From a virus, in the IMG/VR virus record IMGVR_UViG_3300033145_000390, positions 1-30,691 of that record: DNA of 30,691 bases; one strand, given 5' to 3'. The position numbers and the translations under genes are program-made. Shown piece by piece: positions 394-28,592 of this stretch; position 1 is the stretch's first letter, and every line of letters begins with the position of its first letter. The notes beneath the pieces were generated by a model that made no database searches, had not been told where the DNA came from, and saw nothing but the letters and a program-made list of their open reading frames with translations.

Positions 394-409
394 TGACCAA
401 ATTTGGTCA
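394..409. promoter_or_regulatory. Dispersed palindrome, copy 1 (operator candidate)
   Basis: TGACCAAATTTGGTCA is a perfect 16-base palindrome. On the minus strand the flanks read CTA before it and AAG after it, extending the symmetry. It sits in the gap between the 39-aa gene and the 70-aa gene, in the leader of the latter. It is one of about ten copies in the window. Confidence 0.75.
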
Positions 410-433
410 TAGAATATGTTAATTGCCATCTTT

Positions 434-553
434 TTATTGTCTCTCAAATATTATGAACCTTCCAAACCATATAACCCAGATGCTTGCGTCGTCCCAGTTG
501 AGATATGGGAGGAAGGTGAAAAAGGTCTTGCCGTAAGCGGGGATTAGTTTCAT
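434..553 (-). CDS. Tiny aromatic-rich protein (39 aa)
   Basis: An ATG at 553 overlaps the TGA of the upstream gene in an ATGA junction, and the frame runs 39 codons to a TAA. The protein starts MKLIPAYGKTFFTFLPYLNW and continues with a hydrophobic, tryptophan-rich stretch (WVIWFGRFIIF), so it may associate with a membrane or pack as a small beta/helix unit. The upstream GAGGAATCAG supplies a Shine-Dalgarno. The coupling and the coding-like composition make it likely to be real; the function is unknown. Confidence 0.6.
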   Translation of the reverse strand: MKLIPAYGKTFFTFLPYLNWDDASIWVIWFGRFIIFERQ

Positions 554-789
554 TCTGATTCCTCCGCCAACTTGGTGAAATGAGAGATCCAGCAATCGGT
601 ACAAGTTTTGTCCTTTGAATAGTTACAGGTTTTGCAAATATTTAAACGTTTAGACACATTCATATCTATATACTTAGCCACCAGCTTGATAACCTTTTTC
701 TGTAGTGCAAGGTCGGCTTCCAGGGTTGCTATATAATCCTCATAGTCATCTCTGATACCTTTTAATAATGCTTCTTCTTCCTCATTCAT
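550..789 (-). CDS. Small protein with coiled coil and paired CxxC motifs
   Basis: A 79-residue protein. Residues 1-40 are acidic and helical (NEEEEALLKGIRDDYEDYI...), predicted as a coiled coil. Residues 52-66 carry C52-x2-C55 and C63-x2-C66, a spacing suitable for one zinc ion. A GAAAGGATTGAGAG leader precedes the ATG. Its stop is coupled to the 39-aa gene. The structure suggests a small DNA-, RNA- or protein-binding zinc module, but this is inference and no family is recognised. Confidence 0.8.
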   Translation of the reverse strand: MNEEEEALLKGIRDDYEDYIATLEADLALQKKVIKLVAKYIDMNVSKRLNICKTCNYSKDKTCTDCWISHFTKLAEESE

Positions 790-806
790 CTCTCAATCCT
801 TTCTAA

Positions 807-882
807 CAGGCAGGTGAGCCTTTTACTCCCGCCAAAGTTCGCAACTGCTTCGAGACATAGCTGACCATTAAGCCACTGCCTG
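807..882 (-). other. tRNA-like or structured element bounded by a 7-bp stem
   Basis: On the minus strand this 76-base intergenic segment starts CAGGCAG and ends CTGCCTG, a perfect 7-bp terminal stem. TG follows it, then a D-arm-like GCT-TAATGGTC-AGC. A possible GGGAG/CTCAC arm lies next to the 3' stem, but it lacks the TTCGA T-loop, and no clear anticodon stem forms. It may be a decayed tRNA, another structured RNA, or chance. No protein-coding gene occupies it. Confidence 0.25.
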
Positions 883-888
883 TCAGGC

Positions 889-1185
889 TTATTTACTTGC
901 ATCGTATATTATAATAGAAAGATATAAAATAATTATAAATAGCCCTAAAATTGTATACTTGTCAGGAATATATACTTTCTTAACTTCTTTAATAATTGGG
1001 GTTTTTGGCGTCCACTTTCCACTATTATTAAAATCAATTTGGTTAATTAAACAACCACAAGAAGGACATCTATCTGACGCCATATGATTCTCATTATAAG
1101 GTGGTTTCCCATCTTTACTTCTCCATGCACATAAAAGACTAACACATTCATATTCAAAATCTGGATATTCCTCCGTACCATTCAT
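889..1185 (-). CDS. Small Cys-rich protein with a C-terminal membrane helix
   Basis: A 98-residue protein beginning MNGTEEYPDFEYEC with an AAGGAGAATAGAAG ribosome binding site. Cysteines at 14, 19, 40, 43 and 45, including CPSCGC, look like a zinc-binding module with the second knuckle at 40-45. Residues about 79-94 (ILGLFIIILYLSIIIY) form one strong transmembrane segment, leaving only four residues at the C terminus. This gives a tail-anchored layout with the Cys-rich domain probably in the cytoplasm. Function unknown; this stretch is more AT-rich than its neighbours. Confidence 0.75.
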   Translation of the reverse strand: MNGTEEYPDFEYECVSLLCAWRSKDGKPPYNENHMASDRCPSCGCLINQIDFNNSGKWTPKTPIIKEVKKVYIPDKYTILGLFIIILYLSIIIYDASK

Positions 1186-1197
1186 CTTCTATTCTCC

Positions 1198-1344
1198 TTA
1201 TTTAGCATCTATATATGGAGCAATTATTTCAATTAATGCTCTCAATCGCCACCATGTTTTCGGATTAGCCCACTTTGGATTTTCATCCTCAAGTTCTCTT
1301 GCCCTCTTATTAACTAATTCTTTAAGTTTTTCTGGCTTCATCAT
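1198..1344 (-). CDS. Small hypothetical protein (48 aa)
   Basis: A short gene with two adjacent ATG codons (1344 and 1341) after an AAGGGGATAG sequence; spacing slightly favours the second. The product begins MMKPEKLKELVNKRAREL and contains a KTWWRLRALIEIIAPYIDA segment, so it is probably an all-helical peptide with a double tryptophan. It ends with TAA two bases before the AAGGAGAATAG site of the next gene (889-1185), consistent with an operon. No family is recognised. Confidence 0.6.
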   Translation of the reverse strand: MMKPEKLKELVNKRARELEDENPKWANPKTWWRLRALIEIIAPYIDAK

Positions 1345-1362
1345 CTATCCCCTTATTTACAA

Positions 1363-1431
1363 CGGGGCGAGCAGGATTCGAACCTATAGACGGTCTTGTG
1401 CTTTAACTGGTTACCCTTCCGCCATCGCCCC
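1363..1431 (-). tRNA. tRNA-like gene, shortened or degenerate; anticodon not assignable
   Basis: Read on the minus strand, GGGGCGA at the 5' end pairs perfectly with TCGCCCC at the 3' end (7-bp acceptor, G discriminator). A T-arm is present with GG-TTCGAAT-CC and two weaker outer pairs, and TG follows the acceptor as in normal tRNAs. The total is only 69 bases. The segment between D-arm and T-arm (GTTAAAGCACAAGACCG) does not form a five-base-pair anticodon stem with a seven-base loop, so an anticodon cannot be read. CCA is not encoded. It is either a non-canonical or decaying tRNA, or a tRNA mimic. Confidence 0.5.
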
Positions 1432-1437
1432 GCTGGG

Positions 1438-1533
1438 TTATAATGCTATTGCGTCTATAATAATAGCTTTCCCTGTTTCCATAAGCTCAGACTGTGTTTC
1501 ATCATAATAGAGGAGGCCGTTAAGCCTCCTCAA
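1438..1533 (-). CDS. Possible 31-aa peptide with TTG start
   Basis: In the frame of the upstream gene, just past its TAA, an open stretch reads LRRLNGLLYYDETQSEL and then METGKAIIIDAIAL before TAA. The residue pattern looks coding, but the only upstream start is TTG at 1533 and the Shine-Dalgarno (GGAG) is far away. The first codons lie inside the 8-bp hairpin at 1510-1531. It could instead be decayed coding sequence from a longer gene. Confidence 0.25.
   Translation of the reverse strand: MRRLNGLLYYDETQSELMETGKAIIIDAIAL
1510..1531. terminator. 8-bp hairpin after the 134-aa gene
   Basis: GAGGAGGC and GCCTCCTC form a perfect 8-bp stem around a six-base CGTTAA loop. It lies 11 bases past the stop of the gene at 1543-1947. 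The stem is GC-rich, but on the minus strand it is followed by TATTATG and not by a T-run. Termination is therefore uncertain, and it may instead stabilise or block the mRNA. Confidence 0.4.
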
Positions 1534-1542
1534 TGTTACAAC

Positions 1543-1947
1543 TTATGCTCCACCAACGAACTTCTTGATAGTATTTCTAATCACGCCATCTTCCCCTTCG
1601 TCTTCCCCAACTATCCCGCTTCCCAGTGCTCCTTTGATATCGGCTAGATCTACTCCCTGCGAGTAGTCTATACTAAAGGCCTGATAGAATAGTTTCCACC
1701 TTTTGCGTTTCTTTTTCGATGACTTCTCGTCATCGTCTTCTGATGGGATGCTCAGATAAACGCGAATATCGTCTGCGTTTGGGAACTCAGGTGTGTCAAT
1801 AATTAGGCAGATTGATTTATTACCTGCCTGACTTTCGTGGGGGTTTGCGTCTTTTACTAGCAATTCTACCTCAGTGTCTGCAGGTATTACTTCTAAATCA
1901 AGATCTTCGTCGAGATCCATATTTAGGAAAGTGCCTTCTTCGCTCAT
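1543..1947 (-). CDS. Acidic phage protein, possibly an ssDNA-binding partner (134 aa)
   Basis: A 134-residue protein with an AAAGGAACAGCAAC ribosome binding site. Residues 10-35 are very acidic (DLDEDLDLEVIPADTEVE), the middle has beta-strand character (SICLIIDTPEFPNADDIRVY), then an acid/base switch (EDDDEKSSKKKRKRWK) and a C-terminal tail IKKFVGG. The layout recalls DUF669-like proteins that phages encode next to recombination ATPases, which may bind single-stranded DNA. That assignment rests on neighbourhood (exonuclease and RecA-like ATPase upstream) and general pattern, not on a firm motif. Confidence 0.75.
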   Translation of the reverse strand: MSEEGTFLNMDLDEDLDLEVIPADTEVELLVKDANPHESQAGNKSICLIIDTPEFPNADDIRVYLSIPSEDDDEKSSKKKRKRWKLFYQAFSIDYSQGVDLADIKGALGSGIVGEDEGEDGVIRNTIKKFVGGA

Positions 1948-1968
1948 GTTGCTGTTCCTTTCTTTTTG

Positions 1969-2154
1969 TTAAATACAGTGATTACGAATTATCACGCAGC
2001 CACCTATTACTGTGAAGGTGTTTAATGTATCAGCTTCTTCAAATTCTACACCTTGGTTGACTGTATACTTCAGCGTGCCTTCCTTCACGCGCTTGCGGAA
2101 GACTTTAACAGTTCCGCTATAGAGCTCTATGCAGGTATACTTATGCATACTCAT
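1969..2154 (-). CDS. Small beta-rich hypothetical protein (61 aa)
   Basis: Starts at ATG 2154, overlapping the exonuclease stop in an ATGA junction, with AAAGGAGGTAAATCTGC upstream. The sequence alternates polar and hydrophobic residues (YTCIELYSGTVKVFRKRV, TFTVIGGCVIIRN), suggesting a small beta-barrel. No family is recognised. Translational coupling to the exonuclease suggests the two are made together. Confidence 0.7.
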   Translation of the reverse strand: MSMHKYTCIELYSGTVKVFRKRVKEGTLKYTVNQGVEFEEADTLNTFTVIGGCVIIRNHCI

Positions 2155-2720
2155 GCAGATTTACCTCCTTTCACTTTGTTATAGATAGATATGGTTAAGT
2201 CTACATCGTACATAGGATTGTGGAGTTCTTCCTTTTTCACTTCGCTGCCTAGCTTTTCGGCTACCGTGCCGAGTTTGAAGTTTTTCATCTTGGGTCTTTC
2301 TACCATGAGGTAATGAGCTGCTAGACTCATAACGTCTATTGGCGGCGACCAGAAGAAACTTCCAAGGTACTTGTCGTTGTGCTTTTTGAACCACGCATAT
2401 AAGAAGTTATAGTCAAAGTGGGCGTTATAAGCAAGAAAGAATGCCTTATCGAGTTTGTTGTAAGGGTCTATAGATGACTCTAGAGCATTCCTGAACGTGT
2501 TGTAGCCTATTTCGCTGGGCATCCATCTAGAGAGTTCTGGTATGGTTACGCCGTTTACTTCTAACGCTTTGCTTTCTATCTCGTCGTTTATGTGAGATTG
2601 GCAATCTACCTGCGTGACGGTCTCGCTTTCTCCATCAAACAGTTTCATGTAAGCCCTTATAACTCCGTTCTTAATAGGATCTAGGCCTGTTGTTTCTACA
2701 TCAACGAATGCTAGTTTCAT
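2151..2720 (-). CDS. DnaQ-like DEDDh 3'-5' exonuclease
   Basis: The 189-residue product is a DnaQ/RNase T-type exonuclease that would remove nucleotides from 3' DNA ends using two metal ions. Exo I is FVDVETTGLDP (D7, E9), Exo II is NAHFDYNFL (D103), and Exo III is HNPMYD with H167 and D172 in the HxxxxD spacing of the DEDDh class. The start at ATG 2720 is chosen because GGAGGAGAAG precedes it and the catalytic domain begins at once; a longer frame exists but lies inside the ATPase gene. It overlaps that gene by 20 bases. There is no polymerase domain, so it is a stand-alone proofreading or recombination nuclease. Confidence 0.9.
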   Translation of the reverse strand: MKLAFVDVETTGLDPIKNGVIRAYMKLFDGESETVTQVDCQSHINDEIESKALEVNGVTIPELSRWMPSEIGYNTFRNALESSIDPYNKLDKAFFLAYNAHFDYNFLYAWFKKHNDKYLGSFFWSPPIDVMSLAAHYLMVERPKMKNFKLGTVAEKLGSEVKKEELHNPMYDVDLTISIYNKVKGGKSA

Positions 2721-3540
2721 CTTCTCCTCCTGCAACGAGTTCTTTATCCTGCCACGATTTGCCTGCTCTTTTAAGTAAAGCTCTAATATCAGGTTTCTCG
2801 AACTTTTCAAACTTATCTCCCCCCATTCTAGTCTCAGCCTTGAATCTACCGTCAGACTTGGTTTGGAGTTGGTGGATACCAGCAGCATTTACACGCATTA
2901 TGTACTTCTCATCGAACACCAAAGGGATTTGATCAGCAATCTTGCCCCACATAAGCAAGCCCATCTCAATAGAGCCTGTAAGCTCGTCCTGTTTTGCATG
3001 GAGGTGTCCAGTCATAAGAGTATGACAAGGCAAGGTCATGATTTCCTTGCGAAGTATATTCCCTGCATGGAGCTGTTGCCAGAGGTAGTCGGATTGGTAA
3101 GGAGCCTGACCTGCGTGAGTTGCTACACCTTTGCCAAGACCAGCTCTCATAATATGGTGCATAAGGCAGACTACCCAATTAGTTAAGGAGTCCATACCAT
3201 AAGTTCCGATAGAGGCAAAGAAGTTCATTCTCTTAAGCTCTAACATTCTCTTTTCCCAACGGAGATACTCAGAAGGTCTTTTCCAGTCGTCAGATTCGAA
3301 CTTCTCGACTATAATAAGGCCCCTTTTTATTAGAGGCTGAAGAGCTGCAGTTGTAGTTCCACCCGAGTCGAACGAGTGAATTAAGACGGGAAAGGGACAG
3401 GATGAATATAGCTGCGTTTTGCCACTGCCGTAGTCTCCAAGAGCCAGTATATTTGCATAAATAGATGCTGTTTGGCTATAGATCTCGGAGATTTCAGCAA
3501 AGGTTTTCCTAATAAGTAAGACTTGTTCATCTTTGTTCAT
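2701..3540 (-). CDS. Sak4-like RecA-fold ATPase (recombination or annealing protein)
   Basis: A 279-residue P-loop ATPase of the phage AAA_24/Sak4-like type, expected to bind single-stranded DNA and promote annealing or recombination. The Walker A is GDYGSGKT at residues 35-42, after a short helical N terminus. The phrase LIHSFDSGG and the later GTYGMDSLT (Walker B-like strand followed by Ser/Thr) and CHTLMTGHLHAKQD (sensor-like) fit the family. The C terminus is charged and may contact a partner. ATG 3540 is preceded by AAAGGAGGC, which abuts a copy of the dispersed palindrome. It is followed by the exonuclease and an acidic protein, a typical phage recombination cassette. Confidence 0.85.
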   Translation of the reverse strand: MNKDEQVLLIRKTFAEISEIYSQTASIYANILALGDYGSGKTQLYSSCPFPVLIHSFDSGGTTTAALQPLIKRGLIIVEKFESDDWKRPSEYLRWEKRMLELKRMNFFASIGTYGMDSLTNWVVCLMHHIMRAGLGKGVATHAGQAPYQSDYLWQQLHAGNILRKEIMTLPCHTLMTGHLHAKQDELTGSIEMGLLMWGKIADQIPLVFDEKYIMRVNAAGIHQLQTKSDGRFKAETRMGGDKFEKFEKPDIRALLKRAGKSWQDKELVAGGEDETSIR

Positions 3541-3551
3541 TTTGCCTCCTT

Positions 3552-3567
3552 TGACCAAATTTGGTCA
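3552..3567. promoter_or_regulatory. Dispersed palindrome, copy 2, touching the ATPase ribosome binding site
   Basis: TGACCAAATTTGGTCA, perfect palindrome. On the minus strand it is followed directly by AAGGAGGC and the ATPase start, so the right arm merges with the Shine-Dalgarno. A protein bound here, or a hairpin in the mRNA, could affect expression of the ATPase and exonuclease. Confidence 0.8.
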
Positions 3568-3577
3568 TAGGTTATAT

Positions 3578-6361: not shown

Positions 6362-6364
6362 CTT

Positions 6365-7572: not shown

Positions 7573-8037
7573 TTATGCTTTTTCTGCCAGTTTTGCTCTG
7601 ACAAGTCTGAGAAGTTCTTTCTCATCCATCTCACCGGCTGAAATCTTTGCGGCTATAACCGCAAAGGGATCTACCTTCTTGGGTTTTCCTACTATCTGGA
7701 GTGAAGGTACATAGGAAGTTCCAGCCTCAATTGCCTGGTCTGCTGTAAAAGTAAACTTAACGTCTTTGATCTTTTTCGTGCCATTTTTCAAAGCCTCTGC
7801 GTCTTCCTTCGAGCAGTGATTAAGTTTGTTTCTAACATTGCCCTGACACCCAATGACTGCGGCTTTAAGATATACGGAGAATACTACAGCTGCTCCGTAT
7901 TTCGAGACAGCCTCGTCCAGACAATGTCCGAGATCCTTTGTAAATTCTACCTTCCTTCCGGACTTTGGAGACTCAACGCTGATTGTGTCCATCTCTACAA
8001 TCTGTTCTTCTGTCAACTTTTTTGCTTCATCAGCCAT
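7573..8037 (-). CDS. Hypothetical phage protein, basic C-terminal half (154 aa)
   Basis: Starts MADEAKKLTEEQIVEMDTIS with CGAAAGGAATATTAAG upstream. The middle has a helical LGHCLDEAVSKYGAAVVFSVYLKAAVI segment and NVRNKLNHC. The C terminus is helical and charged (SAGEMDEKELLRLVRAKLAEKA). No family is recognised; its length and composition resemble phage virion-associated or ssDNA-binding proteins, but that is only a guess. The dispersed palindrome lies 36 bases upstream of the start. Confidence 0.75.
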   Translation of the reverse strand: MADEAKKLTEEQIVEMDTISVESPKSGRKVEFTKDLGHCLDEAVSKYGAAVVFSVYLKAAVIGCQGNVRNKLNHCSKEDAEALKNGTKKIKDVKFTFTADQAIEAGTSYVPSLQIVGKPKKVDPFAVIAAKISAGEMDEKELLRLVRAKLAEKA

Positions 8038-8072
8038 CTTAATATTCCTTTCGCTGATTATGTTTTAATCTA

Positions 8073-8089
8073 TGACCAAATTTTGGTCA
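8073..8089. promoter_or_regulatory. Dispersed palindrome, copy 3
   Basis: TGACCAAATTTTGGTCA, 8-base arms around one T. Flanks AATCTA and AAGGAG match the copies in the late region when read on the plus strand, although the genes around it are on the minus strand. It lies between the stop of the gene ending at 8096 and the start at 8037. Confidence 0.8.
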
Positions 8090-8095
8090 AAGGAG

Positions 8096-8530
8096 TCATC
8101 TTTTCCCATCTTGAAACCATGGGCGGTCACATCTCTCTGTTCTTAAGTACGTCTTGACAGCTTCCTCGCCATTGTCGAACACTTCTAGTGGAATCTCCGT
8201 CATGTTCATATAGGGAGCGTAGTCTATGTGTATACACACGTCTTCACCTTTATGTACTAGACAGGCGTATAGTCTTACACCTTTTCCAAAAGACTCAACG
8301 AGTTCCCTTGAGGTAAAGTTGTATAGAAAAGGCCATTCCTTCTGCGTAACAGCCTCGAATGCTTTGCGTGAAGGACGAGGAGGCTTACTAGCTTTCTTGA
8401 ACTCCTCTACGTTCTGTAATATAACATTCTTTATGGCCTCTGGAGTTATCTCTCCAATCTTTACGCGTTCGAGGAAGTCCTCTACTGTCATCTCTTCTTT
8501 CTCAAAGATTACTTTTCTATCTTTTAACAA
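8096..8530 (-). CDS. Hypothetical protein (144 aa; start uncertain)
   Basis: The frame is open further upstream to ATG 8581, but TTG 8530 is preceded by AAGGAG at ideal spacing, and ATG 8548 lacks a good site; ATG 8581 would overlap the 34-aa gene by 41 codons' worth of sequence less its own tail. From 8530 the product starts (M)LKDRKVIFEKEEMTVEDFLE. Helix, then basic KPPRPSRKAFEAVTQ, then WPFLYNFTSRELVESF and strands (YACLVHKGEDVCIHIDY) suggest an alpha/beta protein. No family is recognised. Confidence 0.65.
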   Translation of the reverse strand: MLKDRKVIFEKEEMTVEDFLERVKIGEITPEAIKNVILQNVEEFKKASKPPRPSRKAFEAVTQKEWPFLYNFTSRELVESFGKGVRLYACLVHKGEDVCIHIDYAPYMNMTEIPLEVFDNGEEAVKTYLRTERCDRPWFQDGKR

Positions 8531-8621
8531 TAATAAGTCTCCTTCCATTTTTCGTGAGGACCTGTTTGATAATCCTGCCATCGAACAGTACCTTTACTAT
8601 ATAATCGTTAGTTTCTTTCAT
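8517..8621 (-). CDS. Possible 34-aa basic beta peptide
   Basis: ATG 8621 begins a 34-codon frame ending in TAG at 8517. The product starts MKETNDYIVKVLFDGR and continues IIKQVLTKNGRRLIIVKR, an alternating pattern typical of a small beta-sheet. It overlaps the upstream gene by 14 bases and the next by 14 if that one starts at TTG 8530. Its Shine-Dalgarno is weak (AAAGCAAAG), so moderate confidence only. Confidence 0.45.
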   Translation of the reverse strand: MKETNDYIVKVLFDGRIIKQVLTKNGRRLIIVKR

Positions 8622-9018
8622 CTTTGCTTTGAACTGATTTCTCGTCATTGATAAGGGCATTAGAATTCTCCTTTAACAAATCTGCTATTTCAGTAGCTCT
8701 TTTATCCTGCACATCGCTCAGAACTTCGCTTATCACATCAAGCTGCAAGGCCTTCTTGACTCCTGTTCTATCTCGCAACTGACTCATCTGAAACCCATGA
8801 GACTTTAAGTACTCTAATGCATCGCCTACGTTAAACTTCAAACCTTGGTTTGCAACTGCGTCCATGCATAACCTTATAATGCTTGACCAAGATGATTTGT
8901 GTGCTACATCTTGCTGATTAAACACGCTGATGACACTTGCTAAAGTTCTGACGTCAACATAAGCACTGATAACAATAGAAGGGCAGGTTTTAGACTGGTC
9001 ACTTTCTTGCTGGTTCAT
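8608..9018 (-). CDS. Hypothetical protein, probably helical (136 aa)
   Basis: Starts at ATG 9018 in an ATGA overlap with the preceding stop, with GAGGAGAACTCAGA upstream. The N terminus is polar (MNQQESDQSKTCPS), followed by VISAYVDVRTLASVISVF, a basic SSWSSIIRLCMDAV helix and a GDALEYLKSHGFQMSQLRDR segment that could be a recognition helix. It may be a DNA-binding protein, but no motif is decisive. The C-terminal 20 residues are charged and likely flexible. Confidence 0.75.
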   Translation of the reverse strand: MNQQESDQSKTCPSIVISAYVDVRTLASVISVFNQQDVAHKSSWSSIIRLCMDAVANQGLKFNVGDALEYLKSHGFQMSQLRDRTGVKKALQLDVISEVLSDVQDKRATEIADLLKENSNALINDEKSVQSKDERN

Positions 9019-9266
9019 TCTGAGTTCTCCTCAGATTCTTTAAGACGCTTTCTCATCTTATCCTGAGTGCCTATGACGAACCGTCTGATGTTAGGAGGAG
9101 TGACAGGTGCAAGAAGTGTAATCTTGACTTCTATTTCCCAAGGAGGCTCATCTTCTTTAAACCTTTTTTTTGGTATGTATATACGTATAGAGTTAAGTAT
9201 ATCTACGTACTTCACGCCTTTCTTGCCTATCTTATCTCGTGTCATTGTGCCTTTTATTACTTTCAT
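9015..9266 (-). CDS. Basic hypothetical protein (83 aa)
   Basis: ATG 9266 with GAGGAAAGTG upstream is preferred over the adjacent GTG 9269. The product has a lysine-rich start (MKVIKGTMTRDKIGKKGVKY), strands (ILNSIRIYIPKKRF, PWEIEVKITLLAPV) and a charged helical tail (DKMRKRLKESEENSE). It overlaps the upstream gene by 35 bases. No family is recognised. Confidence 0.7.
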   Translation of the reverse strand: MKVIKGTMTRDKIGKKGVKYVDILNSIRIYIPKKRFKEDEPPWEIEVKITLLAPVTPPNIRRFVIGTQDKMRKRLKESEENSE

Positions 9267-9498
9267 CACTTTCCTCGACTTTCTGTTTAATAGCTTCTCG
9301 CAATGTGTCTATCTGCGCTTGTTGGTAGCCTACACATGCTGTAAGCCAGCCTATTGCGTAGGCAACACGTTTTAAGTCTTTGCATTCAGATTGGCGTATT
9401 AGACTCAGCACTGCCATATGCGTCTCTGCTTTTGCACCCTCATCTTGAGCTATGCCATCTCTCATTCTATCAAGTTTCTTCCTTATTTCTTCGTTCAT
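9232..9498 (-). CDS. Helical/coiled-coil small protein (88 aa)
   Basis: Starts MNEEIRKKLDRMRDGIAQ with AGAGAGGTAATATC upstream and an ATGA overlap with the previous gene. Nearly all residues fit helices, including AQIDTLREAIKQKVEESDESN at the C terminus, so a coiled coil is likely. A hydrophobic patch (VAYAIGWLTACVGY) lies in the middle. Function unknown. Confidence 0.7.
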   Translation of the reverse strand: MNEEIRKKLDRMRDGIAQDEGAKAETHMAVLSLIRQSECKDLKRVAYAIGWLTACVGYQQAQIDTLREAIKQKVEESDESNKRHNDTR

Positions 9499-9701
9499 GA
9501 TATTACCTCTCTTACAGTCCCGCTTTCGACTTTAACTTCTGCATACCAGGTGTGAGCCTCAGGAAAATGCGGGCCTTCGATATGCTCAGTTCCGTTTTGC
9601 TTTGGAGGAAATATACCTGGAGAGAATATCTCTATCTTATCGCCATTCTTGAGGGCTTCGATCAAGAGTTTCTTATGCTTAAAGTTCGGTCGTACGTACA
9701 T
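9495..9701 (-). CDS. Small hypothetical protein (68 aa)
   Basis: Starts MYVRPNFKHKKLLIEALKNG with AAGGGAGGCGTAG upstream. It continues with DKIEIFSPGIFPPKQNG, a His-rich HIEGPHFPEAHTWYAEV and strand VKVESGTVREVIS, suggesting a small beta-barrel. ATGA coupling to the next gene. The 110-base gap upstream holds no gene I can support. Confidence 0.7.
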   Translation of the reverse strand: MYVRPNFKHKKLLIEALKNGDKIEIFSPGIFPPKQNGTEHIEGPHFPEAHTWYAEVKVESGTVREVIS

Positions 9702-10141: not shown

Positions 10142-10170
10142 AATATAATAAATCCATACCCAAGATGCAA
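10142..10170 (-). promoter_or_regulatory. Promoter P1 (leftward)
   Basis: On the minus strand TTGCAT (10170-10165) and TATATT (10147-10142) are separated by 17 bases, a sigma-70-type promoter. It precedes the GAGGAGGTGA leader of the gene at 10108. The -35 region is shared, as TTGCATCTTG, with P2 and P3. Confidence 0.75.
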
Positions 10171-10192: not shown

Positions 10193-10208
10193 AATAATTC
10201 GTGTACTC

Positions 10209-10225
10209 TGACCAAATTTTGGTCA
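10209..10225. promoter_or_regulatory. Dispersed palindrome, copy 4, upstream of P1
   Basis: TGACCAAATTTTGGTCA, 38 bases upstream of the P1 -35 box. The TGA stop codon of the preceding gene is inside it (10223-10225). Confidence 0.8.
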
Positions 10226-10393
10226 AAGAACAAATCGTATGGAAGTGGCGACTATACTGTATACTTCTCCATAGCTATCTGTTACTAACGCTATCTGATT
10301 GTGGTGAGGTCCCTTAAAGAACTTAATGAAGAAGCCACTTGTAGCATCAGTGCCAAATATGATAGCGTTGCCCTTCTCAAATTTCTGCTTCAT
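10223..10393 (-). CDS. Small protein, paralogue of its upstream neighbour (56 aa)
   Basis: Starts MKQKFEKGNAIIFGTDATSG with AACCGGAGGAATAATACT upstream. It resembles the gene at 10398-10580 in GFFIKFFKG / GFLIKFYLD, ALV and ATSIRF / ATSIKF. The fold looks like a small beta-barrel (SH3-like or similar, by pattern only). Function unknown; the pair arose by tandem duplication. Confidence 0.7.
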   Translation of the reverse strand: MKQKFEKGNAIIFGTDATSGFFIKFFKGPHHNQIALVTDSYGEVYSIVATSIRFVL

Positions 10394-10397
10394 AGTA

Positions 10398-10580
10398 TTA
10401 TTCCTCCGGTTTATCTTTAAATTTGATACTTGTAGCCCATGCGTCGTGCACCTGCCCATCAATATCCTCTACCAACGCCATATGGTAGCCCTTTCCATCG
10501 AGGTAGAACTTGATTAGAAATCCGTGCAGCTCGCTCTTGTTCTCTCCATACCTTTTCGTGAATGTAATTGCTCTTGCCAT
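10398..10580 (-). CDS. Small protein, paralogue of its downstream neighbour (60 aa)
   Basis: Starts MARAITFTKRYGENKSELHG with AAGGAGAGTGAGCAA upstream. Conserved with its neighbour: G-F-x-I-K-F, M/I-A-L-V and WATSIKF near the C terminus. Five strands and no helix are expected. It is in the P2 transcript. Function unknown. Confidence 0.7.
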   Translation of the reverse strand: MARAITFTKRYGENKSELHGFLIKFYLDGKGYHMALVEDIDGQVHDAWATSIKFKDKPEE

Positions 10581-10601
10581 TTGCTCACTCTCCTTGTAAG
10601 A

Positions 10602-10627
10602 AATGCGAGACATTCCTGCCTCGCATT
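10602..10627. terminator. 8-bp hairpin in the P2 operon
   Basis: AATGCGAG (10602-10609) and CTCGCATT (10620-10627) form a perfect stem with a 10-base loop in the gap between two genes. On the minus strand it is followed by TCTTAC, a weak T-tract. It may be a partial terminator or an mRNA processing or stability element. Confidence 0.45.
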
Positions 10628-10634
10628 AGTCATC

Positions 10635-10793
10635 TTATTGTCTCTGCAAAAGGTATGATAATACCACGACTAAATCCTCGAGATGGTTTATTTCCCTAAC
10701 AGCATCTTCTTGCTCGTTGTTGATAGCTCTTCCTCTGGCGCACTCGCACTTTTCGCGCATTTTATTGAGGACATCACTTACTTCTCTATCCAT
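10635..10793 (-). CDS. Small helical protein (52 aa)
   Basis: ATG 10793 follows GGAAGGAGGTGAACAAG, one of the best ribosome binding sites here. The product begins MDREVSDVLNKMREKCECAR and is helical throughout, ending VVVLSYLLQRQ. It contains a C-x-C pair. Function unknown. Confidence 0.65.
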   Translation of the reverse strand: MDREVSDVLNKMREKCECARGRAINNEQEDAVREINHLEDLVVVLSYLLQRQ

Positions 10794-10823
10794 CTTGTTC
10801 ACCTCCTTCCTCGCTGTTACTCG

Positions 10824-11039
10824 TTACTTTGCACCTTCCAGTTTGTCCTTTATACCCTTTGCGTGCCTTGCCACTTTTGTTATTGAGGCTGACAATTCTG
10901 TTAGTATTGCGTGCAATTCCTCCCATTGCGCCTCTGTAAGCGTATCATCTCCCGACAGTGAATCTTTCAATTCCTCCACCTTCACGTCATACTCTACTAT
11001 TTCTTCTTGTATATCGCAAATGTCGTCCAGCTTGCTCAT
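10824..11039 (-). CDS. Acidic coiled-coil protein, first gene of P2 (71 aa)
   Basis: ATG 11039 with GAAAGGAGGTGGGAAAGAA upstream is the start; a longer open frame covers the promoter and is rejected. The product begins MSKLDDICDIQEEIVEYDVK and has heptad-like leucines and valines through ELKDSLSGDDTLTEAQWEEL and SASITKVARHAKGIKDKLE. A helical hairpin or coiled coil is likely. It would be the first product from promoter P2. Confidence 0.75.
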   Translation of the reverse strand: MSKLDDICDIQEEIVEYDVKVEELKDSLSGDDTLTEAQWEELHAILTELSASITKVARHAKGIKDKLEGAK

Positions 11040-11070
11040 TTCTTTCCCACCTCCTTTCTCCTCATACCAT

Positions 11071-11099
11071 AATATAACACATTCCATTACAAGATGCAA
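11071..11099 (-). promoter_or_regulatory. Promoter P2 (leftward)
   Basis: Minus-strand TTGCAT (11099-11094), 17 bases, TATATT (11076-11071). It is nearly the same as P1 through TTGCATCTTG and TATATTAT, and precedes the AAGGAGGTG leader of the gene at 11039. Confidence 0.75.
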
Positions 11100-11135
11100 G
11101 CATTATTTCATTACTCGGGTAAATAATTTAACCTT

Positions 11136-11152
11136 TGTCCATAATTTGGTCA
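11136..11152. promoter_or_regulatory. Dispersed palindrome, copy 5, degenerate
   Basis: TGTCCATAATTTGGTCA differs at three positions from the common 17-base form. It is 36 bases upstream of the P2 -35 box, the same arrangement as copy 4 with P1, so it is taken as a diverged copy. Confidence 0.6.
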
Positions 11153-11172
11153 AAGGACAGATTGCGTGATTG

Positions 11173-11325
11173 CTACTTCTCCATCTCAAGCACTATATTT
11201 CTCACCTCTATAATCATTTCCTGCACCATCTCGCAGGAATTGATAGCCCTAGAATGCGAGCCATTTATTCCTGCATCTAACTCTACAAACATCATGTTTA
11301 GTAGATTCAGCAGTTCATCTTTCAT
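11173..11325 (-). CDS. Small acidic helical protein (50 aa)
   Basis: ATG 11325 follows GGAGGTGAGAACAA. The product starts MKDELLNLLNMMFVELDAGI, then NGSHSRAINSCEMVQEM and VRNIVLEMEK. It is mostly helical with a net acidic charge. Good ribosome binding site and composition; no family is recognised. It lies between the palindrome of P2 and the long inverted repeat. Confidence 0.6.
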   Translation of the reverse strand: MKDELLNLLNMMFVELDAGINGSHSRAINSCEMVQEMIIEVRNIVLEMEK

Positions 11326-11344
11326 TTGTTCTCACCTCCTCTCG

Positions 11345-11360
11345 TTGTGCTTTAGCACAA
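11345..11360. terminator. Short hairpin TTGTGCT-TT-AGCACAA
   Basis: A perfect 7-bp stem with a two-base loop, just outside the left arm of the long inverted repeat and 20 bases upstream of the 50-aa gene. It has no T-tract on the minus strand. Terminator or leader-structure role is uncertain. Confidence 0.35.
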
Positions 11361-11362
11361 CA

Positions 11363-11661
11363 TGGAACATAAATCTAATTCTAATTCTAATAACCTAAAT
11401 CTAAACCTAAATCTAACTGCCTTTTCCCATTCAAAATCCATAATTATCCGCTCTCACTATGCCATGCTCTATAGTATGTCCCATCCTTACCTTGATATGT
11501 ATCTGTTCTTTTTTTTTTTTTTTTTTTTTAAACAACTACATGGATATACCACTATACCATATAGTATACCGTGGTATATTGCATATATGTGATATGAATG
11601 GCATATGGCAGTTAGATTTAGGATTAGATTTTTAGCTAATTAGAATTAGAAATTCGTTCCA
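11363..11661. repeat. Long imperfect inverted repeat with CTAAWY hexamers, T-tract and nested palindromes
   Basis: The left arm (11363-11433) and the reverse complement of the right arm (11595-11661) match through TGGAAC, CTAATTCTAATT, CCTAAATCTAACTGCC and CCATTCA with a few gaps. Both arms consist largely of tandem CTAAWY hexamers. The 161-base centre holds a run of 21 T (11509-11529) and palindromes at 11544-11579. It contains no gene I can support. The location near the divergent region, strand symmetry and AT-richness suggest a replication origin or a regulatory cruciform. Confidence 0.75.
11544..11579. repeat. Nested palindrome with TATACCA motifs
   Basis: ATATACCAC (11544-11552) pairs perfectly with GTGGTATAT (11571-11579). 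Inside is ACTATA-CCA-TATAGT (11551-11565). The same TATACCA/TGGTATA word appears again at about 12590, 12640 and 12668-12683. Confidence 0.6.
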
Positions 11662-11672
11662 ATTGCATTCTA

Positions 11673-11690
11673 TGACCAAAAATTTGGTCA
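11673..11690. promoter_or_regulatory. Dispersed palindrome, copy 6
   Basis: TGACCAAA-AA-TTTGGTCA, perfect arms with a two-base spacer, just outside the right arm of the long inverted repeat and about 50 bases past the stop of the gene at 11741. Confidence 0.75.
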
Positions 11691-11740
11691 AAGAAGGACG
11701 CCCTTTCCTTCGTAAACATGGTCAGATGTCTAGTTTAAGT

Positions 11741-12295: not shown

Positions 12296-12970
12296 GATTA
12301 TCCTCATAATGTGTTATAGGGCGGCAGGGCACGAATTACACTTCCGGTCTCCGCCTATCCATGCACATACGCGCACTTCGTATTAAGGCTCGTTCCGGCG
12401 ACGTCCGTCAATACCGCCCTTCGTTGAATAACCAGACACCTGACCATTTATTCATTCGTGCATCGGTTGCGCAGCTCCCATTGGCGGAGTCGTTCCGTTG
12501 TGCTTACGTACTACGACAGCACTATGTATGTTTCCATTACTCGTACATCGTGTTATTATGATTACTCGTGTTCGGTGGGTACATCTATACCATATATAAT
12601 AGCAAACACCGTGCCAACTCGAAAAACCACAACACCTGGTATAATCCACGGTGAGCTATACATCATGTGGTATAGATATACCAATGAGCACATGTCAAAT
12701 GTGGCAGCTTTCATGTCATTCATGCTGTTACGTCATGACATAGCTGCCATAATGGCAGGCCTAGAGGGGGATTTTTGGATTGGGCTATAGTTGACTGCTA
12801 ATTCGGTATATTCTACAAGATTTAGGCATGGAACTTTTATATTCCTGATGGTGCTGTTGGCTCTACCAACGAAGATAAATGTAAGGAAGATAATGCTTGT
12901 GCGGAATATACTACTCCCAGCCCCTCATTTTGAGAATTGCGAGATAACAAGGTTACAATCACGAAATCTA
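12296..12970. other. Divergent intergenic region, no gene supported
   Basis: About 675 bases between the leftward and rightward units. The part from 12310 to 12500 is visibly richer in G and C than the rest. It holds AGGGCGG (12318-12324) and its complement CCGCCCT (12414-12420), TGGTATAGATATACCA (12668-12683), hairpins at 12703-12758, and ATTTTTGG at about 12772. Open frames here lack ribosome binding sites and coding composition. It probably contains control sites and perhaps small RNAs. Confidence 0.6.
12703..12758. repeat. Two overlapping, mutually exclusive hairpins
   Basis: GGCAGCTTTCATGTCA (12703-12718) can pair with TGACATAGCTGCC (12736-12748, with a small bulge). The 3' part CTGCCAT of this arm can instead pair with ATGGCAG (12752-12758) in the perfect palindrome CTGCCATAATGGCAG (12744-12758). 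This is an attenuator-like layout. Confidence 0.5.
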
Positions 12971-12987
12971 TGACCAAATTTTGGTCA
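12971..12987. promoter_or_regulatory. Dispersed palindrome, copy 7, upstream of late promoter P3
   Basis: TGACCAAATTTTGGTCA with flanks AATCTA and AAGATC, 74 bases before the P3 -35 box. Confidence 0.8.
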
Positions 12988-13061
12988 AAGATCACGGATT
13001 GTGTGCAGATAAACCTGATCACATTTGTTCCCGAAAGTGCCACAACTACACAATTTTTATG

Positions 13062-13090
13062 TTGCATCTTGGGATCGTATCTATTATATT
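13062..13090 (+). promoter_or_regulatory. Promoter P3 (rightward, late operon)
   Basis: TTGCAT (13062-13067), 17 bases, TATATT (13085-13090). It shares TTGCATCTTGGG and TATTATATTA with P1. It is 30 bases upstream of the first late gene and is the only such promoter seen for the rightward unit. Confidence 0.75.
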
Positions 13091-13119: not shown

Positions 13120-13368
13120 ATGGCTAAGGATAGTATAAGAGAGCAGCTAGCTGAACTTGCACATGATCAATGGTCTGGATGGATGGAGTATCTTTTCTCT
13201 AAGTCAACCTACAATAAGGATGGCACGGTTACTATTCCAAAGTGGGCAGTAGAAAGATGGGGCGCACAAATGGAATCGTCTTTTTCTGGCCTGACAGAGG
13301 AAGAAAGAGACAGTGACCGCGTAGAAGCCGATAAGTTCTTAAAAGTATTTGAGGCATTCGATGGCTAA
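13120..13368 (+). CDS. Small conserved phage protein (82 aa)
   Basis: ATG 13120 has GGAGAACTCGCTA before it; an in-frame ATG 15 bases earlier lacks one. The product starts MAKDSIREQLAELAHDQWSG and includes WMEYLF, TIPKWAVERWGAQM and TEEERDSDRVEADKFLKVFE. I recognise this pattern (QW..WM...PKWAVERW...L.EEE..SDR..ADK) from many phage genomes, where it is usually annotated as hypothetical. It overlaps the next gene by eight bases. Confidence 0.8.
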   Translation: MAKDSIREQLAELAHDQWSGWMEYLFSKSTYNKDGTVTIPKWAVERWGAQMESSFSGLTEEERDSDRVEADKFLKVFEAFDG

Positions 13369-13891
13369 GATTCCAGGAAATCCAGAGGATAGAAAATATA
13401 CTATCCAGCACCTTTGGCAGAAGCATCACGAGATTAAAAGACTCAAGCTTCTCGGCATGGGCAATATAGAAATAGCGAGAGCCCTCAATTGCACTCCGCA
13501 GAACATTTCAGATATATCAAATTCCCCTATTTTTCAGGCAGAGCTACAGATTCTAGCAACGGCTAGAGATTCGGCATCGGTAGATGTTGCGAGAGCAATA
13601 ATCTCGGAAGGCCCGAAGAGTCTCGAATTACTTTCACAAATTAGAGATAATAAAATAGATGGTGAGCATGCGCCGTTAGTACTTCGAGCTAAAGTTGCGG
13701 CTGACTTGCTTGATAGAAATCCGAGAACAGCAAAGGCTCGCAATATCTCAGGAAGCATTCTGCATGGGCATATAGTTCAAGGTGAGGTCTTAAGTAGAAT
13801 AAAACAGCGTGCGATAGCAGCTCGAGAGAGCGCAGTGAATGATGGAGCTGTCATTGTTGATGCAGAAATTGTACAAGAGGAGGTAGGATAA
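13361..13891 (+). CDS. Probable terminase small subunit (HTH protein)
   Basis: A 176-residue protein from ATG 13361. Residues about 33-55 (MGNIEIARALNCTPQNISDI) are a clear helix-turn-helix of the type found in small terminase subunits, which recognise phage DNA for packaging. The middle is helical (ASVDVARAIISEGPKSLELL) and the end is flexible (VNDGAVIVDAEIVQEEVG). It is first in the late operon but about 9 kb from the large subunit, so a transcriptional role is the main alternative. Confidence 0.65.
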   Translation: MAKIPGNPEDRKYTIQHLWQKHHEIKRLKLLGMGNIEIARALNCTPQNISDISNSPIFQAELQILATARDSASVDVARAIISEGPKSLELLSQIRDNKIDGEHAPLVLRAKVAADLLDRNPRTAKARNISGSILHGHIVQGEVLSRIKQRAIAARESAVNDGAVIVDAEIVQEEVG

Positions 13892-18353: not shown

Positions 18354-18357
18354 TCTA

Positions 18358-18374
18358 TGACCAAATTTTGGTCA
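18358..18374. promoter_or_regulatory. Dispersed palindrome, copy 8
   Basis: TGACCAAATTTTGGTCA starting five bases after the TAA of the previous gene, in a TAATCTA context, 14 bases before the next ATG. Confidence 0.8.
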
Positions 18375-18387
18375 GAGGTAACGATTA

Positions 18388-18750
18388 ATGGATTTAGCTG
18401 GAACATGGGATCTAATTATAGATCAAGGCACGACTTTTGAACGATATTTTCGCTGGGAAGACTCATCAGGCACAGCGAGGGATATTTCGAGCTATACCTT
18501 TCATATGAAGATTCGGAAGACTCACGATGATTCTGTTGTTATAGCTACAACCGAAGGTGGAAGCCCTACTATTGTAATCTCACAGCCTGGCGCAACTGGC
18601 GTTATCAAGGTGCTTATGACAGCGGCTAATACTGCTGCTCTCGACTTTGTCCGTGGAGTTTATGATATTGAGGCTATGTATAGTGGTGGTAATCCTCTTT
18701 ATCGTATAGTTCAAGGTAATGTAACTCTTCGTAAAGAGGTTACTTATTAA
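18388..18750 (+). CDS. Beta-sandwich phage structural protein (120 aa)
   Basis: Starts MDLAGTWDLIIDQGTTFERY, then FRWEDSSGTARDISSYTFHM and VYDIEAMYSGGNPLYRIVQG. The phrase D-Q-G-T/A-T-F followed by W-x-D-S-x-G and Y-x-x-x-M-x-I-R is common to a small beta-sandwich family in phage tail and fibre regions. It probably anchors or caps the large adhesin encoded next. Weak ribosome binding site (AGAGGTAACGATTA). Confidence 0.7.
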   Translation: MDLAGTWDLIIDQGTTFERYFRWEDSSGTARDISSYTFHMKIRKTHDDSVVIATTEGGSPTIVISQPGATGVIKVLMTAANTAALDFVRGVYDIEAMYSGGNPLYRIVQGNVTLRKEVTY

Positions 18751-22100: not shown

Positions 22101-22109
22101 GAGGATAAC

Positions 22110-23938: not shown

Positions 23939-23942
23939 TCTC

Positions 23943-23959
23943 TGACCAAAATTTGGTCA
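23943..23959. promoter_or_regulatory. Dispersed palindrome, copy 9
   Basis: TGACCAAAATTTGGTCA starting five bases after the TAA of terL, in a TAATCTC context, and followed by the AGGTGGAGGT site of the portal gene. Confidence 0.8.
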
Positions 23960-23975
23960 TAGGTGGAGGTTACAA

Positions 23976-26215: not shown

Positions 26216-27084
26216 CTGATGAAATTGGAAAAGACTTGGCGGAGATGCTGGGAGAAGCTCCTACAGATACCTCTAATGCTTCTAAGGAAGAAGGTGAAGA
26301 GCTTGAAGATAAGAAAGACGAAGCCTCCGGAAAAGAGAAGGAAGCATTACAAGAAGAGGATGATGCGGGAGCGGAGGATAAAGGCGAAGATGAGGAAGGC
26401 GAAGAAGGAGAGACAAAAGCGGGCGAAGATGACGAGGCTAAGTCCGGAGCTGAGTCTGATGAATCTGATGAATCTGGTGAAGATACCGAACTAGAGGCAC
26501 TTCGTAAACAGAATGAACTGTTGCAGGAACAGCTAAGCAATGTGCTTGAGCCAAAGAAACCTGCTGAGACGGAGGAGCCTAAGGAAGAGGAACCTTCATT
26601 AGATGTATCAGATTACATTGATAGTGACGAGGTCTATGATGCTGTTTTACAAGACAAGGCAGCACTAAACAAGGTTTTGAATAAAGTAGCGGAGCATGCT
26701 TATTTAAAGGCTGTTGAGCATGTTACAAAAAGTATGCCTAGACTGATTACCAAGGTAGCTAAGGATGAAGTGTCAAGTCAAATTATGGCTAATGAATTCT
26801 TTAGGGCGCATCCCGAGTTGACCAAGCAACGCAAGTTCGTTGGCTTCGTGTACAACGAGATGCTCGAGAAGAATCCAGACAAGGACCCTATTACGATCTT
26901 GACAAATGAACTAGCTGGCGAAGTAAGAAGTAGATTAGGCATTGCTGGAAAGACACAGCCTACAAAAAAGAAAAAGGCTAGACCTCCCTTTACACCTGGC
27001 GGTGGAGGAAGAAGAGGCGGACAAGCGCCTAAGAAACCTACAGGTATAGGGGCAGATATTGCCGAGATGGAGAAACTACGATGA
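26212..27084 (+). CDS. Scaffold-like protein, very acidic then helical (290 aa)
   Basis: Residues 1-95 are a highly acidic, Glu/Asp/Lys/Ala/Ser-rich stretch with many GE, DE and EDD pairs, followed by a short coiled coil (LEALRKQNELLQEQLSNVLE), an alpha-helical domain with basic KSMPRLITKVAKDEV and HPELTKQRKFVGFVYNEMLE, and a lysine/glycine tail (TKKKKARPPFTPGGGGRRGG). Acidic N terminus plus basic C terminus beside the portal fit a scaffold that guides capsid assembly. Confidence 0.75.
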   Translation: MTDEIGKDLAEMLGEAPTDTSNASKEEGEELEDKKDEASGKEKEALQEEDDAGAEDKGEDEEGEEGETKAGEDDEAKSGAESDESDESGEDTELEALRKQNELLQEQLSNVLEPKKPAETEEPKEEEPSLDVSDYIDSDEVYDAVLQDKAALNKVLNKVAEHAYLKAVEHVTKSMPRLITKVAKDEVSSQIMANEFFRAHPELTKQRKFVGFVYNEMLEKNPDKDPITILTNELAGEVRSRLGIAGKTQPTKKKKARPPFTPGGGGRRGGQAPKKPTGIGADIAEMEKLR

Positions 27085-27644
27085 GCACTTTGACTAGTCT
27101 TGGTATTAAGGCCAAACCTGGGCTGGGCTACGTGATGTTTAACAAGGCGTTGGTTAGTGTTAATACTGATCTAGACGTTGAGCATTCTATGTGTGTTACA
27201 GGGGATGCTAGAATGGTCGGAGACCTTACAGTAACTAACTTGCGTACTCCGCACTGGCGGTATCCTAAAGTAGTCTGCGCATGTATAGCTGATATATCTA
27301 CAGCAGGCTTTCACTGGTTTGTAGTGCCTTTTACAGGATACATTACTAAAATCAGCACTGTTCTGTATGGTACTATTGCTACTGCCTCTGCTGTTGTAAC
27401 ACTTATAAAGCCTATTACTATGCCTTTACTATATCAGACGGCTTACTCTACAGTGACAATAGCTAGTGGGGGGTCGGCAGCTGCTGATATAGATACTGCT
27501 ACACTTGATTATACGAAAGCTTTGGATGTGTTAGTTGGGTCTGTATCGGCTGGGGACGCTCGTGCTGTTAGAACGAGCGGCGCTAGTACTAATGCTGTTA
27601 AGGTATCTGCTATAATTGAAATCTCTCACGACTGGCCTGGTTAA
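27081..27644 (+). CDS. Head fibre/decoration-like protein 1 (187 aa)
   Basis: Starts MSTLTSLGIKAKPGLGYVMF with ATGGAGAAACTACG upstream and an ATGA overlap. The section DLDVEHSMCVTGDARMVGDL is a beta-repeat like that in the next gene. The rest is beta-rich (VTLIKPITMPLLYQTAYSTV) and ends IIEISHDWPG, similar to IIEITRT at the end of the next gene. Likely a trimeric head fibre or decoration protein. Confidence 0.7.
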   Translation: MSTLTSLGIKAKPGLGYVMFNKALVSVNTDLDVEHSMCVTGDARMVGDLTVTNLRTPHWRYPKVVCACIADISTAGFHWFVVPFTGYITKISTVLYGTIATASAVVTLIKPITMPLLYQTAYSTVTIASGGSAAADIDTATLDYTKALDVLVGSVSAGDARAVRTSGASTNAVKVSAIIEISHDWPG

Positions 27645-27655
27645 GGAGGAACTCT

Positions 27656-28186
27656 ATGAGTATTGAAGGAGAATTAGCCAGAGCTGGCATAGTGACTCTG
27701 GATGACGAGACTATTATAACTAAGGATATGGTAGTCGCGCAAGATTTAAACGTCGAGGACAACCTTATAGTTGGAGGAGATTCAACTATAGATGGTGACC
27801 TATTTGTAAGCGGTGATCTTACAGGAACAGTTATAGGCACGTACTACCTACAGTTTAGGACCTTTGTTGTAAGTGGGGCTAACGATATCTATTTGGTCGT
27901 GCCTACAGGCGGAGATGGTAATATCACTGCAATTAAGGTTGTTGCAACGGTTGCGCTAACGTCTGCAGATGCTGATATAACTCTCAATGCAAACGGTGAT
28001 GCTAGTGATGCTAGCATTACGTTTACGCAAACTACACTAGCAGCCATTGGAAGCGTGGAGTCTATAGCCGTGGCGTCTACGGCTACCCATATAGATGTAG
28101 TAGCAGGTGAGTATATCAAGCTTACATCTGATGGCGGTCCTGATGCTGGCGAGGTCGATGGTATCATTGAAATAACTAGAACTTAA
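27656..28186 (+). CDS. Head fibre/decoration-like protein 2 (176 aa)
   Basis: ATG 27656 with TTAAGGAGGAACTCT upstream. Starts MSIEGELARAGIVTLDDETI, then VVAQDLNVEDNLIVGGDSTI / DGDLFVSGDLTG, a beta-repeat typical of phage spike bases. Then a beta-sandwich of alternating residues ending GIIEITRT. The N terminus MSI-x-G-x-L-x-x-AGI is shared with the gene at 28609, suggesting a common docking site. Confidence 0.7.
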   Translation: MSIEGELARAGIVTLDDETIITKDMVVAQDLNVEDNLIVGGDSTIDGDLFVSGDLTGTVIGTYYLQFRTFVVSGANDIYLVVPTGGDGNITAIKVVATVALTSADADITLNANGDASDASITFTQTTLAAIGSVESIAVASTATHIDVVAGEYIKLTSDGGPDAGEVDGIIEITRT

Positions 28187-28205
28187 TGAAAGGAAACAAT
28201 TTATT

Positions 28206-28571
28206 ATGACTTTACCTGGAACACCATTAGCGCAGGTTACCGCAGATAAGGGTATGCCTGCAAGAGAGAGCGTGTTGTTCTATACGTCTGCTACGGCAGC
28301 CACGCTCCAAATGACCATCAACGATCGGACTTACAACTTGACAACGTCAGGAGCGGCTCTTGCCGTTACGCTTCCGTCAGTGGCTGAGGCTGCAGGGATG
28401 ATGTTCTTTATCTACTTTATTAGCAAGGATAGTTCTTACTCTATTACGGTAGATGACAAGGGCGACGATATACCCTTTAGCCAGCTCACCATTGACACTG
28501 AAGACGATGCGTTTATTCTTATCAGCGATGGAATTCACTGGTATGCCATGAACGCTTCTGCGACAACTTAA
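28206..28571 (+). CDS. Beta-rich small structural protein (121 aa)
   Basis: ATG 28206 with GAAAGGAAACAATTTATT upstream. Starts MTLPGTPLAQVTADKGMPAR, then alternating strands such as LQMTINDRTYNLTTSGAALA and ITVDDKGDDIPFSQLTIDTE. A jelly-roll-like or small beta-sandwich structure is expected. It may be a decoration protein. The TAA precedes a palindrome copy by four bases. Confidence 0.7.
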   Translation: MTLPGTPLAQVTADKGMPARESVLFYTSATAATLQMTINDRTYNLTTSGAALAVTLPSVAEAAGMMFFIYFISKDSSYSITVDDKGDDIPFSQLTIDTEDDAFILISDGIHWYAMNASATT

Positions 28572-28575
28572 TCTA

Positions 28576-28592
28576 TGACCAAATTTGGGTCG
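28576..28592. promoter_or_regulatory. Dispersed palindrome, copy 10, degenerate
   Basis: TGACCAAATTTGGGTCG has two changes from the usual form. It is in a TAATCTA context after the previous stop, and its right arm runs into the AAGGAG site of the next gene. Confidence 0.65.

Follow-up and report, generated by a model that had tools for sequence, protein, structure and literature searches.

A short palindrome, or dyad, recurs between the genes of IMG/VR virus record IMGVR_UViG_3300033145_000390, and we followed it through the window (the whole stretch of DNA analysed here, 30,691 nucleotides, bases 1-30691 of a 33,984-base linear record) and through relatives of this phage. The dyads are probably parS-like sites, and their putative binder is a phage ParB-type protein fused to a DNA methyltransferase. 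Among the proteins tested, this fusion, which contains a ParB-type helix-turn-helix (HTH), appears to be the best-supported binder, as only its HTH part tracks the sequence of the dyad. The methylation step, taken on its own, is a more tentative proposal, which we hold to be possible rather than probable.

Dispersed dyads in the phage and its relatives

The initial annotation had listed ten copies of the palindrome in the window; each of its coordinates proved exact, and a palindrome is present at all ten. Its statement that the arms are conserved stands for eight copies, which carry a perfect TGACCAAA-(0-2)-TTTGGTCA, but not for those at 11136 (TGTCCATAATTTGGTCA) and 28576 (TGACCAAATTTGGGTCG), which are imperfect. 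An eleventh copy, CTTTGTCCAAATTTGGTCAAAG, lies at 31074, outside the window in the remainder of the 33,984-base record. With its CT/AG flanks, the full element measures 22-24 bp and reads CTnTGACCAAA-(0-2)-TTTGGTCAnAG. An unbiased finder of repeated dyads (11-base arms, spacer 0-2) returned a single cluster of 11 for this record, the next best being 1. The copies are short and AT-centred, as would suit an artefact of chance or composition, or a mobile palindrome that spread. Such an origin is, however, extremely improbable, because dyad clusters in 15 Markov random genomes modelled on this record reached at most 2, and because several of the gene boundaries concerned are also occupied in relatives, by dyads of other sequence.

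On our own reading of gene starts all copies are intergenic, as had been annotated: the three that fall within mechanically called open reading frames (11133, 12968 and 31074) are upstream of likelier start codons or in spurious frames. Many copies stand 10-30 nt before a start codon, and the recurrent 'AATCTA' context is often the TAA stop of the upstream gene joined to the CTA flank.

Relatives were found via TerL and portal searches, whereas a search with the tail-fibre-like protein found none. The exact word of the palindrome is absent from the three closest records (G001-G003), and an exact-word scan of IMG/VR gave merely scattered, mostly single matches. The initial annotation had named, as evidence that would count against it, relatives lacking the palindrome at matching positions; the word is indeed lacking, but a different dyad occupies a number of these boundaries instead. 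With the same finder, nearly all relatives have a dyad of their own, usually of 23 bp with CT...AG ends and in the usual frame CTnTG...CAnAG (G005, G010 and G011 use other frames), giving 39 different half-site cores in the 60 genomes or loci with dyads. Examples are CTCGTTAACAAATTGTTAACGAG in G001, CTGYRTAACAWWWTGTTAYRCAG in G002, CTATGTCCCAAATTGGGACATAG in Desulfofustis phage OP947158, CTATGGGGAATTATTCCCCAAAG in G009/G012, CTTCGTTCATTTTATGAACATAG in G007/G013, and CTTTGATGATTAAATCATCAAAG, which occurs 22 times in a 48-kb contig (L127 / G014:C23, JAUUZE010000001.1) of a Clostridia metagenome-assembled genome, a phage of the same lineage. The presence of this contig in a Clostridia assembly is a possible host link or the product of mis-binning. 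Even within single metagenomes, contigs carry several different versions of the dyad.

The places recur. They include the gap upstream of TerS, the TerL/portal gap, the c9/c11 gap and the region downstream of the major capsid gene, and in most genomes there are also sites where the early operon ends or past that point, including its convergent end. Round the genome, the sites are spaced more evenly than random (combined p 6e-5), a comparison that presumes near-complete circular contigs.

Co-variation of the dyad with a ParB-type HTH

In relatives, an early protein consists of a ParB N-terminal (CTPase-fold) domain, a ParB-type HTH and an N6/N4 DNA methyltransferase. ParB_N (PF02195) and N6_N4 MTase scored above the Pfam cut-offs in 10/10 fusion proteins scanned. 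Pfam HTH_ParB itself gave a marginal match (0.04). A profile of the fusion matched solved ParB and Noc chains across the N-domain and the HTH (E 1e-13 to 1e-17), KorB weakly (9e-5), and CcrM and a DNA cytosine-N4 methyltransferase at ~1e-18 to 1e-20. Conservation is at least 90% in AGGRR and ENxxR (nucleotide boxes), in D235 PPY (DPPY) and in PxxGSG. By these profiles and motifs, the predicted protein is assigned all three of its parts.

In G001, the ParB-HTH-methyltransferase gene (8220-9542) comes next after the orthologue of c17 (7800-8063). By the example of relatives, the fusion gene of the window's phage presumably lies next to c17, beyond the contig end; no near relative with that gene was found when one was searched for. 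Among annotated phages, a full-length fusion turned up only in Desulfofustis phage LS06-2018-MD01 (OP947158, gene at 10342-11634) and in Microcystis phage Mel-JY34, the latter with a divergent HTH and no dyad detected in the phage. In Vibrio phage VS-ABTNL-3 (L087), whose ParB-methyltransferase homologue has a degenerate HTH, a different dyad, TCAATCGACgAGTCGATTGa, occurs four times (173, 6568, 23359 and 38800).

We compared proteins with motifs by sliding-window partial Mantel tests on an 80-locus expansion, with PDDEXK as the phylogeny control. For the fusion, the partial correlation had a median of 0.04 along the protein and reached 0.36-0.45 exactly in the HTH. An all-column scan for G at motif position 6 placed column 147 best (uncorrected p 2.6e-7; next column 2.2e-4): this residue is His or Arg in 9/9 genomes with G at that position, versus 2/30 others. 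On a tree from which the HTH was left out, it takes 7 changes to account for G at position 6, of which at least 6 are forced and convergent; in independent pairs, the residue shifts in the same direction in 6/6 (sign test p 0.03). Column 147 follows a G-K-S motif and aligns with ParB residue 173. In Caulobacter ParB, R173 is in contact with parS guanine 1, and the R173Q substitution contributes to a switch to NBS (PMC7383237). Statistically, the sequence of the palindromic target goes with the residue after G-K-S. The dyad thus changes in step with the HTH, which suggests what the fusion protein binds.

Several observations weigh against this assignment. The window's contig stops about where the fusion gene should start, so that its own copy and HTH are unseen. 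Windows of the polymerase and the primase also correlate with motif distance (in fewer taxa and with higher medians), and the Mantel result alone is therefore not decisive; earlier whole-protein Mantel tests on 12-13 genomes gave no signal. The column-147 rule has two exceptions, L204 and G006. Position 6 was picked after inspecting the table, and the p value of column 147 is uncorrected for the residue splits searched, which makes the gap to the next column the fairer measure, while the sign test on its own reaches just the p value given above. Some loci have as few as two copies, and a motif backed by two or three copies may have arisen by chance. The even spacing does not hold for G006, G007 and G013. 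Finally, the dyads, at 23 bp, are longer than the 16-bp parS/OB.

Reading of the half-sites

The initial annotation had also considered an mRNA-level switch. For a hairpin or switch in 5' leaders speak the many copies placed 10-30 nt ahead of a start codon and the 8-9 bp stem that can be drawn. However, at variable symmetric positions the arms pair in 264/412 cases, fewer than the 298 ± 7 obtained with re-paired half-sites, that is, without compensatory change, and some copies lie at the early operon's convergent end. We therefore consider an RNA element highly improbable. Since the half-sites vary independently, the dyad is a DNA site and not an RNA hairpin, with each half-site read on its own at the DNA level.

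The sites are slightly polar, as purine and pyrimidine differ between the two halves of a site at half-site position 3 above chance (97 vs 77 ± 5). The orientation of this polarity is inconsistent (33/12 among early loci, 19/17 among genomes), as is the orientation of the symmetric sites relative to transcription.

Other candidate binders

One DNA-binding protein acting at all copies, as originally proposed, is supported, but none of the three binders put forward with that proposal (158-370, 8608-9018 and 13361-13891) is favoured. The TerS-like protein (13361-13891) has an identical recognition helix in genomes with different motifs, and the beta strand of c17 (158-370) is invariant while motifs differ. 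The third, c23 (8608-9018), resembles a ribbon-helix-helix regulator, of which the dyads would be the operators. It is a small, fast-evolving early protein present in 13/13 genomes with an early region; it has a strand-helix-helix layout (AlphaFold pLDDT, the predicted local distance difference test, 87) and isolated weak matches to the RHH_5, ParD and RHH_1 models. Yet c23 tracks the motif weakly (0.17-0.23), without a peak such as the ParB HTH shows, a site stands directly upstream of its gene in 3/12 scored, and Foldseek gave no significant PDB fold match, all of which makes it an improbable binder. We also set aside c16 (7573-8037), which shows moderate motif tracking (partial r 0.35-0.36) without a recognisable DNA-binding fold.

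Two of these proteins have further features. Conserved in ~80 loci, c16 is modelled by AlphaFold with a pLDDT of 89, and its Foldseek search was without a significant match. c17 and its orthologues are small conserved early proteins (RLSIEIS...PWG...F) whose gene adjoins the ParB-methyltransferase gene, making c17 a possible partner; in many genomes, a dyad stands 9-24 nt upstream of it.

Positions in the window

Dyad copies in the window, with the early gene c17, and their surroundings.
Feature	Sequence	Spacing	Position	Strand	Context
Dyad	CTTTGACCAAATTTGGTCATAG	0	391..412	no strand	upstream of gene 158-370(-); own dyad of G001 (7719) upstream of the orthologue
Dyad	CTTTGACCAAATTTGGTCATAG	0	3549..3570	no strand	upstream of Sak4-like gene (-)
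Dyad	CTATGACCAAATTTTGGTCAAAG		8070..8092	no strand	upstream of c16 gene 7573-8037(-); G001 dyad 2777 in the orthologous place
Dyad	CTCTGACCAAATTTTGGTCAAAG		10206..10228	no strand	~35 bp upstream of sigma70-like promoter 10142-10170(-)
Dyad, degenerate	CTTTGTCCATAATTTGGTCAAAG		11133..11155	no strand	~33 bp upstream of promoter 11071-11099(-)
Dyad	CTATGACCAAAAATTTGGTCAAAG	2	11670..11693	no strand	dyads in the same region in G001 (48394) and G002 (37376)
Dyad	CTATGACCAAATTTTGGTCAAAG		12968..12990	no strand	upstream of late operon/TerS; same place in G001 (46875) and G002 (35989)
Dyad	CTATGACCAAATTTTGGTCAGAG		18355..18377	no strand	in gap preceding gene 18388-18750(+)
Dyad	CTCTGACCAAAATTTGGTCATAG		23940..23962	no strand	TerL/portal gap, which in G001 also holds a dyad (35155)
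Dyad, degenerate	CTATGACCAAATTTGGGTCGAAG		28573..28595	no strand	gap between 28206-28571 and 28609-29541
Gene c17, 70 aa			158..370	(-)	last complete early gene before contig end

Two other elements lie near the divergence of early and late genes or close to the early promoters. Near-identical sigma70-like promoters, TTGCATCTTG-N13-TATATT, occur three times, at 10142-10170 (-), 11071-11099 (-) and 13062-13090 (+), where early and late genes diverge; for each of them, a dyad lies ~33-71 bp upstream of the -35 box. Degenerate telomere-like repeats (CTAAATCTAATTCTAA) form an inverted pair (11370-11420 / 11609-11660) flanking a long T run (~11510-11530); this pair is non-coding, lies near the early promoters and may be an origin or a regulatory structure.

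Discussion

In the explanation we favour, the dyads are parS-like loading sites for a phage ParB-type protein that has a DNA methyltransferase in place of the usual C-terminal dimerisation domain. One HTH would bind each half-site, so that a dimer would occupy the dyad. Each phage keeps about ten copies of a private dyad, genome-wide and between genes, the HTH and the sites changing together. After NTP-dependent loading, the nucleoside triphosphate (NTP)-bound clamp may close and slide away from the sites, as inferred from ParB, Noc and KorB. CcrM-like enzymes dimerise, so the methyltransferase part could close the clamp. Sliding would then carry the methyltransferase over neighbouring DNA, and the phage's own genome would be methylated because it carries the address. 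Such sequence-addressed methylation, in which the clamp loads at private palindromes a few kilobases apart, slides and marks the phage genome as self, is a conjecture that we rate well below the identity of the sites themselves; it would place specificity, with the same reserve, in the loading address rather than in a short methylation motif.

The main rival shares the same predicted binder and gives it the role of a KorB-like global regulator, mainly silencing or blocking transcription at promoters and gene boundaries or close to them, with the methyltransferase part secondary. KorB is detectably related to the fusion and silences over >1 kb (PMC11790492), the sites lie in short gaps beside start codons and, in most genomes, where the early operon ends or further on, and some DFP/G015 sites overlap a TATAAT promoter. 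However, sigma70-like promoters near sites are weakly enriched (27 vs 16.8 expected), and promoters at a constant distance from sites were looked for and not found; the symmetric sites have no consistent orientation relative to transcription, and the catalytic motifs of the methyltransferase are at least 90% conserved. We therefore consider a mainly KorB-like role unlikely, though it is the alternative to be taken most seriously. The initial annotation had thought of a phage repressor or stoperator system, and the sites are indeed dispersed and intergenic, and each phage has a single specificity, which is also what is reported for Cluster A mycobacteriophages (PMC6550527). That the dyads are stoperators or operators of a lysogeny repressor is nevertheless very unlikely, given that they are symmetric and not oriented with transcription, and that no tyrosine integrase, serine recombinase or above-cut-off CI-type HTH_3 was found in 13 genomes. 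ParA (PF13614) was likewise not found in the 13 genomes, some of them fragments, which disfavours segregation. As several of the 13 genomes are fragments, the absence of integrase, repressor or ParA is not proof. PF00940 (single-subunit phage RNA polymerase) had no match in the 13 genomes, but the control search likewise matched nowhere.

The parS-like reading places the dyads beside several known systems. With ParB/parS and Noc/NBS they share the ParB_N domain and ParB-type HTH of the predicted binder, palindromic sites and a residue after G-K-S that sets the base read; Noc binding sites, too, are scattered round the chromosome. Unlike in those systems, the C-terminal part here is an N6/N4 methyltransferase, no ParA gene was found in the 13 genomes, and the sites are 23 bp long and different in nearly every phage lineage. 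KorB of plasmid RK2 also belongs to the ParB-family clamps and acts from operators (the 16-bp OB; PMC11790492), but it works with KorA and without a methyltransferase, in one plasmid system rather than with a diversified address set. A 2025 survey, in its text on phage ParB folds, counts N6_N4 MTase with the domains that are fused to them more frequently in phages, reports that related folds bind CTP or ATP, suggests that the fusions may serve anti-defence or interactions between phage and host, and gives there no cognate DNA site (PMC12704722). Its ParB-CTPase::N6_N4 methyltransferase fusions have the same domain pair as ours; relative to that text, a ParB-type HTH and a candidate genome-wide site set are attached here.

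Among dispersed phage repeats, Cluster A stoperators (PMC6550527, PMC3029335) are similar in being intergenic (20-36 sites per phage) and in differing in specificity between phages, but they are 13-14 bp long, asymmetric, oriented with transcription and bound by a lysogeny repressor monomer. The SAS/ESAS repeats of Cluster K, of unknown function, lie just upstream of the start codons of orthologous genes, and their inverted-repeat consensus differs between subclusters (PMC3203893); the ESAS have 17-bp arms with a 4-13 bp spacer, however, and are tied to a 13-bp asymmetric SAS. Matches to that linked SAS (GGGATAGGAGCCC) are at chance level here, 4 at 3 mismatches vs 5.3 expected. The conserved inverted repeats (CIRs) of phiC31 are palindromic sites dispersed in the phage genome and bound by the lysogeny repressor.

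One large lineage of ParB-methyltransferase fusions is now linked to candidate binding sites. Here a whole site set changes with its reader, yet often stays at the same gene boundaries, providing a natural library in which dozens of ParB specificities are paired with candidate addresses and making the function of the fusion directly testable. Private addresses, if confirmed, would prevent a mark from being shared with relatives that co-infect or co-exist, and would fit self-marking or the avoidance of cross-talk. Genome methylation that is addressed rather than motif-based would, if true, be categorically new.

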